From NCBI RefSeq assembly GCF_000024025.1, contig NC_013131.1, positions 4,774,001-4,838,000 of the forward strand: a DNA stretch of 64,000 bases, read 5' to 3'. Both the position numbers and the translations under genes were made by a program. Source of the DNA: Catenulispora acidiphila DSM 44928 (GTDB lineage Bacteria > Actinomycetota > Actinomycetes > Streptomycetales > Catenulisporaceae). The notes beneath the pieces were generated by a model, which worked only from the letters and a program-made list of their open reading frames with translations, was not told the DNA's origin and ran no database searches. Position 1 is the stretch's first letter; every line of letters starts with the position of its first letter. Below, piece after piece: positions 35,069-43,232 of this stretch.

Positions 35069-35159
35069 GGGCTAATCGTGACGCCACGCACTTTCACGGT
35101 AGCTGTCCGCTGACGACAGTTGTTCACATCCCGACGTTCGAAAGGTGAGGCCGCGGACC

Positions 35160-37772
35160 ATGGACGACCGCTACGAGGCGTACACGATGCTCGACCGGCA
35201 TTTCTACGATGCCGTTCGTGGCGTCGGGCCCGCCACGCCCGGCTTCGCTGCCGGGGAGCGGGAGCTGCCGTCCGGGTGGCGGCGCTACGGCCAGGACGAC
35301 TGGACGGTCGTGGAGCCCACGCCGCTGGAGCTGCCGGCGCAGGGCTGGAAGATCCACGCCTCGGCCGCCCTGGACAGCGCCGAGGAGATACTCGCCAAGG
35401 TCTACGAGTACTGCGTCCCGCGCGGAATCGCCTTCAAGTTCCTGCGCTCGCCGGCCGCGCTGCTCGCCCGGGTGTCGAAGTACGCCCCGCGCGGCTACTC
35501 CGGCAAGTTCATCACCATCTACCCCTCCGACGACGCCGCCTGCGAGCGCATCCTCACCGAGCTCGGCGAACAACTCGACGGTCTGCCGAACCCCTACATC
35601 CTCAGCGATCTGCGCTGGAACGCCGGTCCTCTGCACGTCCGCTACGGCGCCTTCGCCAATCGCTACACCGTCTCCGAGAGCGGTTCGGTGGTGCCGGCGA
35701 TGGCCGCGCCCGACGGGACGCTGGTCCCGGACCGGCGCACGCCGGTGTTCCGCACGCCGGAGTGGGTGGAGCTGCCGGAGTTCCTGGCGCCGCAGCTGGC
35801 TGCGCGCAACGCCGTGACGCTCAACGACATGCCGTACAAGGTGGAGCGCGTTCTGCACTTCTCCAACGGCGGCGGCATATATGTCGGCCGTGACACGCGC
35901 ACCGGCGACGAGGTCGTGCTCAAGGAGGGGCGGCCGCACGCCGGACTGGACGCCCGCGGCGCCGACGCCGTGCACCGCGTCGAGCACGAGTACGCGATGC
36001 TCAAACGCCTGGAGGGCATACCCGGCTTGCCGCATGCCAGGGACCTGCTTTGGGTCGGCGAGCACCGCTTCCTGGTCATGGACTACATCGACGACGGCGT
36101 CCCGTTGAGCCGCACGATGGGAGTCCGGTATCCGCTGACCGACCACGCGGCGACCGATGAGGACCGCCAGCGCTACACCGACTGGGCTCTGGACATCCAC
36201 CGCCAGGTCAGCGAGACGCTGGACGCCATCCACGAGCGTGGCGTCGTCTACGGCGACCTGCACATGTTCAACGTGCTGGTGCGCGCCGACGACTCCATAG
36301 CCCTGCTGGACTTCGAAGTGTCCTGCGACGCCGTCGAGTCGGTCCGTCCCGGTCTGGGCAACCCCGGCTTCAGCGCGCCGGCGACGGTGACCGGCGTCGA
36401 CCGCGACCGCTACGCGCTGGCCTGTCTGAGCCTGGCGCTGTTCCTGCCGCTGGCGAACATGATCTGGCTGCACCGTCCGAAGGCGCGCGACTTCGCCGCC
36501 GTGATCGCCGAGCAGTTCCCGGTCCCGCACGGCTTCCTCGCCGAGGCGGTCACGGTGATCACCGGTGTCGACGACCGTGCCCGGCCGCCGGCGCTGAACG
36601 TCCCGGTCCGGATCGAGCCCGAGCCGCACGACTGGCCCGCGATGCGCGCCGATCTGGTCCGCTCCATCGAGGCCAGCGCCACCCCGGAGCGCGACGACCG
36701 GCTGTTCCCCGGCGACATCAGGCAGTTCGCACTCGGCGGGCTCGGGCTCGCTCACGGCGCGGCCGGCGTGCTGTACGCCCTCGACGTCACCGGCGCCGGA
36801 CGCTTCCCGCAGTATGAGGACTGGCTGCTGCGGCACGCCAAGGACCCCGGCGACGGCGCGCGCCCCGGCTTGTGGGACGGCATGCACGGCGCCGCCTTCG
36901 CCCTGGACCACCTCGGCCACCGCGCCGAAGCCCTGGACATCGTCGAGTCCTGTCTGCGCGACAACTGGGAGGCCTATGCCTCCGACCTCGCCGGCGGCTT
37001 GTCAGGGATCGGACTCAACCTGCTGCACCTGGCCGAGCGCACCGGCGAGAACGGACTCGCCGAAGCCGGTCTGCGCGCCGCCGAGATCGTCGCCGAACGG
37101 CTCGCCGCCCCGGACACCGCGCCGACCGTCTCCGGACGCGACGGCTTCCACGCCGGGCTGATGCGCGGGCACTCCGGGCAGGCGATGCTGATGCTGCGCG
37201 CCTTCGACACCGTCGGCGACAGCCGGTTCCTGGACTGCGCCGCCGAGGCCCTGCAACGGGATCTGCGCCGGTGTGTAGTCCGGGACAAGCAGGCCATGCA
37301 CGTCGACGAGGGCTGGCGCACCCTGCCGTACTTGGACGTCGGCAGCATCGGCATCGGCGTGGCGCTGGACGCCTATCTGGCGGTCCGCCCCGACGACGAG
37401 GACCCGAAGTTCGCCGAGGCCGCCGAGACCATCCCCGTGGCCGCGCACTCCCCGCTGTACGCCCTGCCGGGCCTGTACTCCGGGCGCGCCGGGATCATCC
37501 TCTACCTGGCCGGCCGGACCCCCGAGCGTCACCGCGACCCGCTGCTCGCCGCCCAGGTGCGGAGCCTGACGTGGCACACGCTGCCCTACGGCGGCGGCAC
37601 GGCGTTCCCCGGCGGCGGGCTGATGCGCCTGTCCATGGACCTGGCCACCGGGACCGCAGGGGTCCTGCTGGCCCTGGGCGCGGCCCTGCACGACGAGCCG
37701 GTGCACGCACCGCTGCTCGCCCCCAAGACTCCCGTGCCGTCCGGCGCGGGGCAGCCAAAAACAGGAAGGTGA
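35160..37772 (+). CDS. aciKC: class III lanthipeptide synthetase LanKC (catenulipeptin-type)
   Basis: This 870-residue trifunctional enzyme dehydrates Ser residues of the precursor and forms labionin rings. Residues 1-215 are the lyase-like domain. The Ser/Thr-kinase-like domain (about 225-510) has ATP Lys255 in VVLKEG, the catalytic loop GDLHMFN (Asp366, Asn371) and LLDFE (Asp384). The C-terminal cyclase-like domain (about 515-850) lacks the three zinc ligands of LanC/LanL: WRTLPYLDVGSIGI and GLYSGRAGI stand where Cys and Cys-His would be. This places it in class III rather than IV. The ATG at 35160 follows GGTGAGG; a GTG at 35145 is less likely. The order synthetase-precursor-transporters matches ramCSAB. 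From memory it is AciKC of Catenulispora acidiphila. Confidence 0.95.
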   Translation: MDDRYEAYTMLDRHFYDAVRGVGPATPGFAAGERELPSGWRRYGQDDWTVVEPTPLELPAQGWKIHASAALDSAEEILAKVYEYCVPRGIAFKFLRSPAALLARVSKYAPRGYSGKFITIYPSDDAACERILTELGEQLDGLPNPYILSDLRWNAGPLHVRYGAFANRYTVSESGSVVPAMAAPDGTLVPDRRTPVFRTPEWVELPEFLAPQLAARNAVTLNDMPYKVERVLHFSNGGGIYVGRDTRTGDEVVLKEGRPHAGLDARGADAVHRVEHEYAMLKRLEGIPGLPHARDLLWVGEHRFLVMDYIDDGVPLSRTMGVRYPLTDHAATDEDRQRYTDWALDIHRQVSETLDAIHERGVVYGDLHMFNVLVRADDSIALLDFEVSCDAVESVRPGLGNPGFSAPATVTGVDRDRYALACLSLALFLPLANMIWLHRPKARDFAAVIAEQFPVPHGFLAEAVTVITGVDDRARPPALNVPVRIEPEPHDWPAMRADLVRSIEASATPERDDRLFPGDIRQFALGGLGLAHGAAGVLYALDVTGAGRFPQYEDWLLRHAKDPGDGARPGLWDGMHGAAFALDHLGHRAEALDIVESCLRDNWEAYASDLAGGLSGIGLNLLHLAERTGENGLAEAGLRAAEIVAERLAAPDTAPTVSGRDGFHAGLMRGHSGQAMLMLRAFDTVGDSRFLDCAAEALQRDLRRCVVRDKQAMHVDEGWRTLPYLDVGSIGIGVALDAYLAVRPDDEDPKFAEAAETIPVAAHSPLYALPGLYSGRAGIILYLAGRTPERHRDPLLAAQVRSLTWHTLPYGGGTAFPGGGLMRLSMDLATGTAGVLLALGAALHDEPVHAPLLAPKTPVPSGAGQPKTGR

Positions 37773-37777
37773 AGAAG

Positions 37778-37933
37778 ATGACCGAGGAGATGACTCTGCT
37801 CGACCTGCAGGGCATGGAGCAGACCGAGACCGACAGCTGGGGCGGCAGCGGCCACGGCGGCGGCGGCGACTCGGGCCTGAGCGTCACCGGCTGCAACGGC
37901 CACAGCGGCATCAGCCTGCTCTGCGACCTCTGA
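37778..37933 (+). CDS. aciA: class III lanthipeptide precursor (catenulipeptin-type)
   Basis: This 51-residue peptide has a leader with TLLDLQGME, the LxLQ-type motif recognised by class III synthetases, and a Gly-rich core. The core contains two labionin patterns: Ser32-x2-Ser35-x3-Cys39 (SGLSVTGC) and Ser43-x2-Ser46-x2-Cys49 (SGISLLC). The C-terminus is LLCDL. It is encoded 5 nt after the synthetase behind GGAAGG. It agrees with my memory of the AciA/catenulipeptin core that begins GHGGGG and carries two labionins, with SapB-like surface activity. The exact leader cleavage site is not visible. Confidence 0.95.
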   Translation: MTEEMTLLDLQGMEQTETDSWGGSGHGGGGDSGLSVTGCNGHSGISLLCDL

Positions 37934-38250: not shown

Positions 38251-38815
38251 GGTCGCAGTCGGAGTCGGACTGGCGCGCTGAGCGACGACCTTTGCGATGG
38301 CCGCCTCGGGCTGGCTGCCTCCGATCCCACTGGCGGCATGTTCTGCTTCGCGAGGGCTGTGCGGCCCTGCATGAACCTGCACGCGAGTGCCGCTCGCAAC
38401 TGCGGTGGCTGGCTGGCAGTTGCGGGTGTCGGCGGTCGGGGTCGGGCCCGCGCGCTGAGAGATGTGCGCGATGGTCGCCTGGGACTGGCTGACTCCGGTC
38501 TGACTGGCGGCATGTTGTGCTTCGCGAGTGCTGTGCAGCCCTGCATGAGTTTCCGCGCGATTGCCGCTCGGAACGGCGGAGGCTGGCTGGCAGCTGCGAG
38601 CGTTAGCGGTCGCGGCCGGGCTGGCGCCCTGAGGGATGTGCGCGATGGTCGCCTGGGACTGGCTGATTCCGGTCCGGCTGGCGGCATGTTGTGCTTCGCG
38701 AGTGCTGTGCAGCCCTGCATGAGTTTCCGCGCGATTGCCGCTCGGAACGGCGGAGGCTGGCTGGCAGCTGCGAGTGCCGGCGGTCGCGGCCGGGCCAGCG
38801 CGCTCAGCGGCGTGT
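38251..38815. repeat. 174-bp tandem repeats between precursor and transporter genes
   Basis: The anchor GGCGGCATGTT recurs at 38332, 38506 and 38680, exactly 174 bp apart, and GGTCGCGGCCGG-like starts lie at 38434, 38608 and 38782. Units 2 and 3 are almost identical over their full length; unit 1 is more diverged, with a 3-nt insertion, and a fourth unit is partial. The repeat keeps a frame open on both strands because 174 is a multiple of three. Third-position GC in the plus frame is only about 67% (39 of 58 codons in one unit), well below the real genes here, so I treat it as non-coding or very young sequence. The whole 37934-38900 gap holds no other supported gene. Confidence 0.9.
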
Positions 38816-38900
38816 CGGGCATCGCGAATGCTGCGCAGACCGGTACTAGCCGCACTCAGAATGTTGCGTGCCGCCGCCAGCCGACGATCGGTCCGGCCGC

Positions 38901-40541
38901 ATGAGCAGTGCCTACGCGAGCGCGGTCCGCCATGGCGGAGCTTGGTTGCCCACCATCGGTCTGGCAGCCCTGGGCTCCACCGCCGTCACGCTGGCCGTGC
39001 CTGATGTGCTCGGCGCCGCCATCGACGCTGCGGCGACCGGGCACAGCGTCGCCGGGCGGCTCCTGCTCGCCGGCGGGTTGATGGTCTTCGGCGTGCTCTG
39101 CGACATGACCGCGGGCTACGCCGCTGCGGCCTGTACCGCCGGTACCACCGCCTGGCTGCGGTTGCGGATGACGCGGCGGGTGCTGGATGCCGGGCCGGCC
39201 GCCAGTGGGTCCTTCGCCTCGGGCGATTTGCTGGGGCGGGTGTGCGGTAATGCCGCTGATGCCGGGCGGGCCGGGCCGGGTGCCGTCACCGCGCTGACCG
39301 CGGTTGCGCCGCCGGTGGGGAGTCTGGTGCTGCTCGCTGTCATCGATCCCTGGCTTGCCGTGGCGTTCCTGGCCGGTACCGCCGGGGTCATCCTGGTGCT
39401 GCGTTCCTTTACTCAGGGCACTTCTCGCGTTCTGCGGACCTACTTGGAGATTCAGGGTCGGATTGTCGGGCGGCTGGTCGAATCGCTGGGCGGCATCCGT
39501 ACCATCGCCGCTGCCGGGACCGCTGCCGCTGAGCGCGATCGCGTTCTGGCCGAGTTGCCCGACCTGCATGCCGCCGGGCGCGCCACCTGGCGGGTCCTGG
39601 CGCGCTCGACGTTCCAGGGTGCCGTGCTCGGGCCGGCCACGCTCGCCGCGGTGCTGGCTGTCGGCGGTGTGGAGCTGGCGCGCGGCCGCATGACGCCCGG
39701 CGAGCTGTTCGCCGCCAGTCGCTACGCCTCCATCGGTACCGGGCTCGGCGGCCTCACCTCGGTGTTCGCCGCCGTCGCACGTACCCGGGCCGGTGCGGCG
39801 CGCGTCGGCGAGCTGCTGGACCTCCCAGTGGTCGAATACGGCGATCAGGCCGTTCCCGAAGGCAGCGGCGAGTTGACGTTCCTGGCCGTGTCCTCCGGCG
39901 TCCTGCGCGACATCGACCTGACGGTCCCCGGCGGAGCCGCCGTCGCCGTGGTCGGTCCCTCCGGCTCCGGCAAGTCGGCGCTCGCCGCGCTCGCCGCCCG
40001 GCTCCGCGACCCCGAGCAAGGCAGCGTCCTGCTGGACGGCGTGCGGCTGCCAGAGATCGCACACGACCAACTCCGCGCCGCCGTGGGCTGTGCCTTCGAG
40101 CGCCCGACGCTCGTCGGCGCGACCGTCGCCGACGCCGTCGCCCCAGGACTGCCGCGCGAACGCGTGGAAGCCTCAGCGCGGGCAGCCCGCGCGGACGCCT
40201 TCGTCCGCCTCCTGCCCTCCGGCTACGACACCCCCCTGGCCGAAGCGCCGATGTCCGGGGGAGAGGCGCAGCGGATCGGGCTCGCTCGCGCCTGGACCGC
40301 CGACCGCCTCCTCGTGCTGGACGATGCGACCTCCAGCCTGGACACCGCCACCGAGGCACTCATCAGCGACGCCCTGCTCGGCGGCGCGCGCGGCCGGACA
40401 CGGCTGATCGTGACGCACCGCGCGGCGACGGCGGCACAGTCCGATCTGGTCGTGTGGCTCGAGAACGGACGGATCCGGCGGGTCGGCAGCCACGCCCTGC
40501 TGTGGCAGGACGCTGCCTACCGGGAGGTGTTCGCCGCATGA
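38901..40541 (+). CDS. ABC half-transporter of the lanthipeptide cluster (RamA-like)
   Basis: This 546-residue protein fuses a six-helix membrane domain (about 10-300) to an ATPase domain with Walker A GPSGSGKSALAAL, signature MSGGEAQRIGLARA, Walker B LLVLDDATSSLD and His switch VTHRAAT. It should pair with the next gene product to export the lanthipeptide. The ATG at 38901 overlaps the end of the upstream repeat-containing frame as ATGA; a GTG at 38868 is possible. No strong ribosome site is seen, which fits low or coupled translation. No peptidase domain is present, so leader removal must be done elsewhere. Confidence 0.92.
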   Translation: MSSAYASAVRHGGAWLPTIGLAALGSTAVTLAVPDVLGAAIDAAATGHSVAGRLLLAGGLMVFGVLCDMTAGYAAAACTAGTTAWLRLRMTRRVLDAGPAASGSFASGDLLGRVCGNAADAGRAGPGAVTALTAVAPPVGSLVLLAVIDPWLAVAFLAGTAGVILVLRSFTQGTSRVLRTYLEIQGRIVGRLVESLGGIRTIAAAGTAAAERDRVLAELPDLHAAGRATWRVLARSTFQGAVLGPATLAAVLAVGGVELARGRMTPGELFAASRYASIGTGLGGLTSVFAAVARTRAGAARVGELLDLPVVEYGDQAVPEGSGELTFLAVSSGVLRDIDLTVPGGAAVAVVGPSGSGKSALAALAARLRDPEQGSVLLDGVRLPEIAHDQLRAAVGCAFERPTLVGATVADAVAPGLPRERVEASARAARADAFVRLLPSGYDTPLAEAPMSGGEAQRIGLARAWTADRLLVLDDATSSLDTATEALISDALLGGARGRTRLIVTHRAATAAQSDLVVWLENGRIRRVGSHALLWQDAAYREVFAA

Positions 40542-42367
40542 GGGGACGCGAGATCGGCTTCGCTTTCAGCACAGTGCGGCGCTCCTCTGTCATCGCGCTG
40601 TGCTGCTGGTCCCTGCTGGAGGTCCCGTCCTCGGCGCTGTCCGGCATCGCCGTGGCGCACGCGCTCGACGACGGCTTCCTGCGCCACCGCACCGGCGTCG
40701 GCCTGACCTGGATCGCGGTGCTGCTGGCCGCCGCCACACTGGCGGCGCTCGGCGCGCGCCGCGTCTTCGCGTTGCTGGGCAACTTCGTCGAGCCGCTGCG
40801 TGACGTCCTGGTCCGCCGCGTCGTGGACGCCGCCGTGACGCGCGGCGTGGCAGGCGAGCGTGACGGCGGCGCCGCGGCCCGCCTGACCCGCCAGGTGGAG
40901 ACGGTCCGCGACTCCTTCGCCGGCATCATCATCGCCGTCCGCGGGTTCGTCGTCACCGCGCTCGGGACGGCGGTCGGCGCGCTCGCGCTGGGTCCGCTGG
41001 TCGCGGTGATCGTGATGCCGCCGTTCGTGGTCGGGTTCGGGCTCTTCCTCGGCGTGCTGCGGGTCGCCGCCGAACGCCAGCGGGCCAGTGTCCTCGGCGA
41101 GGAGAAGGTGGCCGCTGCCGCAGGTCCGGTCCTGGCGGCGGTGCGCGACATCGCGGCGGGCGGAACCGAGCGCTACGCGGCCGATCTGGTCGGCGGGCCG
41201 GTCCTGGTGCAGGCCGGCATCGAGCGGGCGCTGGCGCGGGTCGCCGCGCTGCGCCAGCTGTGCTTCGCCATCGGCGGCTGGCTGCCCGCGCTGCTGTTGC
41301 TGATGGCCGGTCCGGCGCTGCTGCGGCACGGGCTCACCGCCGGCGATCTGGTCGGCGGGCTGACGTTCGTGGTCTCGGGCATCCAGCCCGCGCTGCGCGG
41401 CGTCATGTCAGGGCTCGGTGACAGCGGTCTGCGATTCTCGATCACGTTGGCCCGCTTGCTGCAAGCCACCGAACCGGTGCCGCAGCCGACGTTCGCCCCG
41501 GCCGAATCGCACACCGACTTCGCCGGTGAGGGGCTGGCGCTGCGCGGCGTCACCTTCGCCTACGGCCCGGCCTCCGAGCCGGTGCTGCGCGATCTCGATC
41601 TGACCGTCGAACCCGGCGATCATCTCGCGGTCGTCGGGCCCAGCGGGATCGGCAAATCCACCATGGCCGCCCTCATTTGCGGATTGCGGCCGCCGGACGC
41701 CGGAACCGTTTTGCTGGGCGGCATTGATGCGGCGAGCCTGCCTCCGGACCGCCTTGCGGGAATACGAGTTTTGATTCCTCAGGAAGCCTATGTATTCGCC
41801 GGATCGCTTCGCGAAAACCTTGCGTATCTCGCGCCACAAGCGTCCGACGATCGCATCACCGCCTCCACCGAAGCCGTGGGCGCCGACGCCCTCCTGGCCC
41901 GCCTCGGCGGCCTGGACGCGCTGCTGGTCCCCAACGAGCTGTCGGCCGGCGAGCGACAGCTGCTGGCGCTGGCCCGCGCGCATCTGTCGCCGGCGCCGCT
42001 GGCGGTCCTGGACGAGGCGACGTGCCACCTGGACCCGGTCGCCGAACGCCGTGCCGAGCAAGCCTTCGCCGACCGCGGCGGCACCCTGATCGTCATCGCG
42101 CACCGGCTCAGCTCCGCGCTGCGCGCCGAGCGGGTCCTGGTCTTGGACGGCGTGCGCGCCGACGCGGGAAGCCACGAGGAGCTCAGCGAACGCTCCGCGC
42201 TGTACCGCGAGCTGCTGGCGCACTGGTCCGCCGGCTCGGAGCCGGTCCCGGCCGCCGGCTCAGATCCAGCCCTCGTCGCGGGCGATGCGCACGGCCTCGA
42301 TGCGGCTGCGCGCGCCGGTCTTGGAGATGGCCCTCGACAGATAGTTGCGAACAGTGCCGTTACTTAA
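40538..42367 (+). CDS. ABC half-transporter of the lanthipeptide cluster (RamB-like)
   Basis: This 609-residue membrane-ATPase fusion has Walker A GPSGIGKSTMAAL, signature LSAGERQLLALARA, Walker B LAVLDEATCHLD and His switch IAHRLSS. It is coupled to the first half-transporter by an ATGA overlap, and the pair probably forms a heterodimeric exporter. The last 36 codons (42260-42367) overlap, on the opposite strand, the DNA-binding domain of the RamR-like regulator, and its TAA stop is antisense to a TTA codon there. The tail after LLAHWSAGSEPVP has no expected function. Confidence 0.92.
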   Translation: MRGREIGFAFSTVRRSSVIALCCWSLLEVPSSALSGIAVAHALDDGFLRHRTGVGLTWIAVLLAAATLAALGARRVFALLGNFVEPLRDVLVRRVVDAAVTRGVAGERDGGAAARLTRQVETVRDSFAGIIIAVRGFVVTALGTAVGALALGPLVAVIVMPPFVVGFGLFLGVLRVAAERQRASVLGEEKVAAAAGPVLAAVRDIAAGGTERYAADLVGGPVLVQAGIERALARVAALRQLCFAIGGWLPALLLLMAGPALLRHGLTAGDLVGGLTFVVSGIQPALRGVMSGLGDSGLRFSITLARLLQATEPVPQPTFAPAESHTDFAGEGLALRGVTFAYGPASEPVLRDLDLTVEPGDHLAVVGPSGIGKSTMAALICGLRPPDAGTVLLGGIDAASLPPDRLAGIRVLIPQEAYVFAGSLRENLAYLAPQASDDRITASTEAVGADALLARLGGLDALLVPNELSAGERQLLALARAHLSPAPLAVLDEATCHLDPVAERRAEQAFADRGGTLIVIAHRLSSALRAERVLVLDGVRADAGSHEELSERSALYRELLAHWSAGSEPVPAAGSDPALVAGDAHGLDAAARAGLGDGPRQIVANSAVT

Positions 42368-42880
42368 GAACAGCTCCGCGGCGATGGCCTTGGTGGGCGA
42401 GCCGTCCATCGCCTTCACCAGCACCTCCCGCTCCCGGTCGGTGAGCGGGTTGTCGACCGCGGACAGCGCGGCCACCGCCAGCTCCAGGTCCAGCACCGGT
42501 TTGCCGTCGACGATCCGGCGCAGCCCGTCGATCAGCTGCGCGGGGGAGGCGTCCACGGTCAGGAAGCCGGTCTGCGGCGCCAGCCGGGTCAGCGCTCCCA
42601 GCGTCGCCGCCCAGCGCTCCACGAGAATCAGGACTTTGAGGTCCGGACGGCGTTCGCACAGCTGAACGCACATCGCGTCCACCGGCGGCACGCCGGGAAG
42701 TTCGGCGTCGAGCAGGATGACGTCCGGCCTTCGGCGCCGTACGGCCGGCCAGACGTCTTCCAACCGTGTGGGCCGCACGACCACCCGGAAGTCGCCTTCC
42801 CGGACCAGTAGTGCCGCCAGACCCTCCCTCCACAGAACAGACCTTTGCGCCAGCGCGATCTCGATCAACGTCGCCCCCAT
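42260..42880 (-). CDS. RamR-like NarL-family regulator with an in-frame TTA codon
   Basis: This 206-residue protein has a receiver-like domain (about 1-120) and a LuxR helix-turn-helix (about 140-206: LTDREREVLVKAMDGSPTKA, then ELFLSNGTVRNYLSRAISK). The receiver keeps a possible phospho-acceptor Asp in ILLDAELPG but lacks the paired acidic residues near its N-terminus (IEIALAQRS), so it is an atypical response regulator, as RamR/AmfR are. The Leu before SNGTV is encoded by TTA (42365-42367), the codon that needs the bldA tRNA in Streptomyces. It converges on the second transporter gene, with a 108-nt overlap. The start at 42880 is chosen by domain fit; an in-frame start at 42973 exists. Confidence 0.88.
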   Translation of the reverse strand: MGATLIEIALAQRSVLWREGLAALLVREGDFRVVVRPTRLEDVWPAVRRRRPDVILLDAELPGVPPVDAMCVQLCERRPDLKVLILVERWAATLGALTRLAPQTGFLTVDASPAQLIDGLRRIVDGKPVLDLELAVAALSAVDNPLTDREREVLVKAMDGSPTKAIAAELFLSNGTVRNYLSRAISKTGARSRIEAVRIARDEGWI

Positions 42881-43232
42881 CCACAGCCGTTCGCGGTCCG
42901 TCGTCCCCGGGTGGCACCGGACCCGCTCGCCGATCACGTTCCGCCCCCGCGCAGTGACGCTCAGCCTAGCCAATCAATACTGTTTCCGAAAATGCCGTAG
43001 GGCGAAATACCTGTGTGCTTCTTGGCCGATTCACGCTTTTGACTATGCCCGCGCCCACCTGCTACGCGGCGGAATGCACGGCGGTTCGCAGGACCGCGTT
43101 CGGCGTTATAGGGGGCGCATTCTTGGTCGCTCTTTATTTCGAATAGTGAACGATCCGTCCCCGTCATGTCAGTGCCCTGATTCAATCCGCACTGGACCCG
43201 GTCCGTTACCGACCGGAAACGTCCTGCGGCGG
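42881..43232. other. intergenic region upstream of the RamR-like gene
   Basis: This 352-nt stretch lies between the start of the RamR-like gene and the end of the monooxygenase gene. It is less GC-rich than its surroundings around 42965-43160 and probably holds the regulator's promoter and leader. If the regulator really starts at 42973 the free region is shorter. I see no gene and no clear terminator in it. Confidence 0.5.

Follow-up and report, generated by a model that had tools for sequence, protein, structure and literature searches.

The 64,000-nucleotide stretch of the Catenulispora acidiphila DSM 44928 genome analysed here (the window; positions 4,774,001–4,838,000 of a single contig of 10,467,782 bases) raises the question of what keeps a rare leucine codon in a regulator gene when the same three base pairs also form the stop codon of the gene running towards it. 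A conserved regulatory rare codon can have two causes in such a position, namely control through its tRNA or the stop of a neighbour on the opposite strand. An earlier note on this DNA had joined the two, proposing that the gene overlap helps to keep a bldA-dependent TTA in place.

Judged from its sequence, the cluster around this site is a class III lanthipeptide set consisting of a LanKC, a precursor, two ABC half-transporters, and a facing LuxR-type regulator (Table 1). Three marks of the ram/amf-type class III clusters could be recognized: the LanKC scored above the model cut-off, a small precursor gene adjoins it, and the two half-transporters stand opposite the LuxR-type regulator, a layout shared with the Streptomyces loci. 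A tblastn search revealed homologues of the precursor at three loci (L154, L155, and L159), each beside a LanKC. The window precursor presumably resembles AciA of catenulipeptin. AciA and AciKC from C. acidiphila DSM 44928 were studied, according to the available portion of PMC8960859. For the regulator, the receiver domain match lay under Pfam's cut-off, and an alternative ATG start at 42880 (residue 32) would shorten the protein to 206 aa. A tandem repeat of 174 bp (2.9 copies, 88% match) was detected at 38294–38804, downstream of the precursor gene and upstream of the first transporter gene. The aligned ends of precursor and transporter are approximately 150–180 nt apart in L154 (G009) and L155 (G005) and more than 900 nt apart in the window, so that the repeat array looks specific to the window genome among those compared.

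Table 1. Cluster genes and overlap features in the window (window coordinates)
Feature	Position	Strand	Basis or remark
LanKC, class III lanthionine synthetase	35145..37772	+	NF038151, 1054.7 bits (cut-off 575)
Lanthipeptide precursor, 51 aa (MTEEMTLLDLQG...)	37778..37933	+	Within longer ORF 36872–37933; start inferred
First half-transporter (ABC exporter)	38868..40541	+	ORF list, domain search
Second half-transporter (ABC exporter), 637 aa	40454..42367	+	ORF, domain search; TAA at 42365–42367
RamR-like LuxR-type regulator	42260..42973	-	237 aa as longest ORF; GerE HTH, E 1.2e-15
Tail-to-tail overlap, 108 nt, codon against codon (phase 0)	42260..42367	both	Transporter on + against regulator on -
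Regulator TGA stop (-), antisense to transporter TCA Ser codon (+)	42260..42262	both	Sequence
TTA (Leu, regulator codon 203, in ELFLSNGTV), the transporter TAA stop on +	42365..42367	-	Same three base pairs

The geometry described in the earlier note could be confirmed, both for the exact antisense position of the TTA and the transporter TAA and for the tail-to-tail overlap of the regulator with the second half-transporter, the last 35 residues of which are antisense to the regulator gene. In phase 0, any stop must face TTA or CTA (Leu) or TCA (Ser); the pairing itself is thus geometric and needs no special explanation. What does call for explanation is the persistence and the spelling of the stop-facing codon. 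Among the six leucine codons, an antisense stop is formed only by TTA and CTA, and since the exchange of these two is silent on both strands (TAA/TAG), the overlap does not fix the codon as TTA. The proposal that another leucine codon would also remove the transporter stop accordingly stands for the remaining leucine codons and fails for CTA, which provides an antisense TAG and was found in four of the five overlap-bearing Catenulispora genomes. Loss of the stop in the window genome would add 148 codons to the transporter. In each of the five Catenulispora loci with the overlap, the transporter tail has a serine before DP.

The use of TTA was evaluated in the window and in 620 kb sampled from the genome. 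Among 42 window ORFs picked by GC-frame bias, one TTA was counted in 17,041 codons (stops included), and for this set the TTA of the regulator is, as had been suspected, the only one in the coding regions. The genome sample contained 34 TTA, 153 CTA, and 299 TCA in 159,595 codons. All three stop-facing codons are therefore rare in C. acidiphila, TTA making up 7% of TTA, CTA, and TCA together and 18% of TTA and CTA, and in the window pairing just the TTA spelling is somewhat improbable. Both genomic expectations of the earlier note, a rare TTA and a tRNA-Leu(UAA) gene, were borne out, the former in the 620-kb sample and the latter at 747303–747386. The regulator thus shows two features of a bldA-controlled gene, an in-frame TTA and the matching tRNA gene in the genome, while a third, conservation of the TTA in orthologues, does not hold, TTA standing at this codon in one of eight Catenulispora orthologues. 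In the same sample, at most 34 of 413 genes carried TTA, an upper bound since longest-ORF starts probably overreach. The TTA-bearing genes scanned included four housekeeping genes (DNA topoisomerase A subunit, aconitase, Dxs, and FtsZ). The TTA lay upstream of the matched domain in all four, where such starts probably overreach, and these genes were therefore rejected as evidence for UUA decoding in growing cells.

Comparison within the genus was conducted on 10 Catenulispora genomes, of which eight contained an orthologue (E 1e-40 or better). Five of the eight loci (G000, the window genome, and G003, G009, G004, and G005) showed the overlap and an identically placed stop, and the length and phase of the overlap in the four relatives were identical to those in the window. 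The codon and stop were TTA/TAA in the window genome and CTA/TAG in each of the four relatives, a 1:4 ratio in line with the 34:153 of the genome sample. The expected conservation of the TTA/TAA pair in Catenulispora was thus contradicted, and the pair was rejected as a genus-wide character. In the four relatives, stop loss would add at least 181 codons to the transporter. All three loci without a visible overlap carried CTC or CTG at the site. In one of them (G006) the codon was CTG and the transporter ended 116 nt before the regulator. The other two (G007 and G008) carried CTC, and no LanKC match could be detected in either at E 1e-100; in G007 no transporter adjoins the regulator, and in G008 the contig stops 140 nt beyond the regulator, before any neighbour becomes visible. 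These two genomes are sisters nested in the overlap-bearing group on the tree, so that CTC there looks like relief once the stop was no longer needed. The evidence for such relief comes from a single probable cluster loss, since the two are sisters and the neighbour in G008 is invisible, plus one distant genome (G006). Both near-complete genomes retain the regulator (G007, L158 3394–4041; G008, L157 7407–8030) together with a neighbouring flavin-dependent oxidoreductase, and with the regulator kept where no LanKC matched, the regulator seems to outlive the cluster.

The reading that we hold to be quite probable is that the neighbour's stop holds the regulator codon to CTA or TTA in the Catenulispora loci where the transporter runs into the regulator in phase 0, the TTA in the window being a derived silent variant and not a conserved bldA switch. 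The transporter reading frame contains no stop ahead of the regulator gene and closes opposite a rare codon of the regulator. Stop loss would produce a long antisense transporter tail, and selection may thus limit the codon to these two spellings. The window genome would then have undergone a derived, doubly silent change from CTA to TTA and from TAG to TAA. The coincidence is real; on this evidence there appears to be no bldA lock in Catenulispora, and the TTA looks like the silent variant of one lineage. The idea that the overlap keeps the TTA survives in the part that the overlap seems to constrain the codon; TTA as such was not kept in the genus.

Streptomyces-type loci provided a larger comparison. 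The set comprised 99 RamR loci, one per matching genome among 197 searched, to which 18 named Streptomyces loci selected for carrying the transporter were added; after identical copies (L266 and L270; 2 of 125 loci) were dropped, 115 Streptomyces-type loci were left. L106, with no transporter near the regulator, was excluded from the survey. The transporter ran into RamR in phase 0 (run-in) in 54 loci and in another phase in five, ended earlier in 52, and was not found in four. As the 18 named loci had been chosen for the transporter, the frequency of run-in is better judged on the 99 loci of the genome search, where it was 46 of 99. The stop-facing codon of the 54 run-in loci was TTA in 26, CTA in three, and TCA in 25. 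With the leucine codon used as the stop site in Catenulispora taken as offset 0, TAA stops lay at offsets -18 (23 loci), -21 (two), and -56 (one), TAG stops at -18 (three), and TGA stops at -17 (18), -39 (three), +28 (two), -60 (one), and +10 (one); neither TTA nor CTA occurred at offset 0 in any of the 115 loci. One run-in locus, L230 (G069), carries TTA at -18 plus TCA at -17 and is a possible intermediate between stop sites. Over the 59 run-in loci (54 Streptomyces-type and five Catenulispora), stop loss would add a median of 111 codons, and at least 60 in 50 of the 59.

The overlap itself could also be what is selected, through antisense pairing or transcription interference of the operon with its regulator, or through a working antisense-coded transporter tail, with the stop and rare-codon pair as a by-product. 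The presence of run-in in all these 59 loci would suit such selection, as would the result of a promoter and terminator scan, in which no terminator-like site was found inside the overlap. Within the overlap, the divergence at third positions of regulator codons, compared at matched upstream divergence, points the same way, being lower for run-in than for non-run-in pairs in four of five bins (0.259 vs 0.386 in the 0.3–0.4 bin and 0.299 vs 0.405 in the 0.4–0.5 bin). A constraint acting on the DNA, or on the transporter tail encoded antisense to the regulator, would fit this lower divergence; the signal is only suggestive, as the pairs are not independent, and the lowest bin showed no difference (0.152 vs 0.153). 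Against selection of the overlap stand the 52 of 115 Streptomyces-type loci in which the transporter ends before RamR, so that the overlap is dispensable. On balance, we regard selection of the overlap itself as rather unlikely.

A second alternative is pure mechanics, in which a run-in transporter simply continues to the first TTA, CTA, or TCA of a GC-rich gene and the codon is unselected. One of these codons must eventually be met in phase 0, the codon ratios of the genome sample make CTA or TTA plausible without selection, and five of the 54 run-in loci extend further than 57 codons, lacking all three codons in the last 57 of RamR (offsets -22 to +34). The distribution of the codons argues against mechanics, because they crowd into this terminal stretch of RamR in 49 of the 54 run-in loci compared to 6 of the 61 others (Fisher 6.6e-20). 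The enrichment test is not circular, since the run-in label is independent of the stop position inside RamR, and an upstream control at offsets -130 to -61 revealed no difference (24/54 vs 31/61, p 0.58). Taken singly, position -18 carried TTA in 24 of the 54 run-in loci, as opposed to 2 of the 52 in which the transporter stops earlier. The codons also changed together with the overlap on a quick tree from which these 57 codons had been excluded (good support for 45 of 120 inner branches), where the overlap changed at least 16 times, 10 of them on well-supported branches. Among 10 independent supported pairs, the codon changed with the overlap in 6.8, in the opposite direction in 0.3, and not at all in 2.9 on average (sign test, median p 0.016, range 0.016–0.29), and the upstream control on the tree gave nothing (median p 1). 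The CTA or TTA in all five overlap-bearing Catenulispora genomes also speaks against an unselected codon, and mechanics by itself is an unlikely account.

That the regulator TTA is a bldA-dependent switch kept in place by the overlap is highly improbable: the tRNA-Leu(UAA) gene is present and TTA is rare, but TTA was found in just one of five overlap-bearing Catenulispora genomes, CTA preserves the stop and leaves the overlap unable to retain TTA, offset 0 is free of TTA in every Streptomyces-type locus, and the accessible part of PMC4255298 holds that the developmental role of bldA may not reach past the Streptomycineae and lists C. acidiphila among the genomes whose adpA-like gene is without TTA.

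In Streptomyces, the constraint of the neighbour's stop on the codon would meet a second tendency. The general proposal of the earlier note does better here: run-in recurs at other codons, RamR separately favours TTA, and in 26 of the 54 run-in loci one TTA may do both jobs. TTA was present in RamR of 89 of the 115 loci. Among other genes called in 17 such Streptomyces loci it occurred in 8 of 158, and the preference was strong against these genes, in which TTA and CTA stood at 8:23. TTA was likewise reported for amfR of seven of 12 genomes in the part of PMC4255298 at hand. RamR was also TTA-rich without the overlap (47 of 61 non-run-in loci), and the overlap therefore does not explain the TTA spelling. 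A preference for TTA over CTA at the stop owing to the overlap was considered and rejected, the ratio of 26:3 at stop-bearing sites and 81:19 elsewhere in RamR (p 0.40) indicating a RamR-wide preference. The 107 TTA codons of the 115 loci had hot spots at offsets -18 (26), -56 (14), -124 (14), and -89 (11).

The loci differed in whether RamR carried a TTA outside the stop site. With kinship ignored, such a TTA was found in 8 of 26 TTA-stop loci, compared to 16 of 28 run-in loci with another stop (p 0.06) and 47 of 61 non-run-in loci (p 7e-5). All three loci with CTA at -18 had TTA elsewhere in RamR. Among relatives of the TTA-stop loci in which the overlap is absent, L222, L225, and L237 had CTG or TTG at -18 and TTA elsewhere, and L234 kept the TTA at -18. 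It is possible, and we put it forward tentatively, that in ram/amf clusters one TTA would make RamR translation await the bldA tRNA and also end the exporter, that the overlap would narrow the escape from bldA control, and that lineages losing the overlap would tend to carry TTA elsewhere. The ways out would be narrowed because TTA to CTA is the only leucine-preserving change that spares the stop. Facts against this dual role are that four (L239, L260, L262, and L263) of the 10 non-run-in loci of this clade, which are at least 75% identical to the RamR of L122, have no TTA, six having one somewhere, and that RamR of 12 of the 54 run-in loci is without any TTA. On the tree, run-in and the presence of any TTA in RamR showed no significant association (0.2 pairs in the same and 2.9 in the opposite direction, median p 0.25).

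More interesting than the Catenulispora case is the wider ram/amf pattern, where a single TTA frequently closes the exporter frame and would also flag RamR for bldA. Scoring a conserved TTA as a bldA target may mislead in such overlaps, and mutants in which TTA is swapped for another leucine codon would also receive a lengthened exporter, unless the codon chosen is CTA. The Streptomyces clusters, with their repeated overlap changes, make both causes separable.

Overlapping convergent genes are known in general. Three convergent overlap phases are distinguished, one of them 123:321, and overlaps are described as arising when a gene extends into the adjacent one as far as the next stop there (PMC2174442, from the sections available); 123:321 is equated here with the codon-against-codon phase of the window overlap. 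Unlike in the window, the available sections of that paper do not link the stop to a rare regulatory codon in the opposing gene, and a literature search, in which subscription journals were thinly covered, found no description of a stop and rare-codon coincidence. The likeness to bldA control through TTA in Streptomyces lies in a rare regulator TTA beside a lanthipeptide cluster and a tRNA-Leu(UAA) gene in the genome, and the difference in that the window TTA occurs in one of eight Catenulispora orthologues. Among the closest known counterparts of the locus are the ram/amf (SapB/AmfS) clusters of Streptomyces, in which a LanKC and two half-transporters likewise face a LuxR-type regulator and a precursor match could be found at three loci (L124, L141, and L142). 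According to the available text of PMC4255298, ramR was reported only in streptomycetes; the window regulator is approximately 37% identical to the RamR of L122 and stands at the equivalent place. The second transporter similarly runs codon to codon into the regulator in 54 of the 115 Streptomyces-type loci, with the difference that its stop mostly lies 51 or 54 nt deeper in the regulator (44 of 54), opposite TCA at -17 or TTA or CTA at -18.
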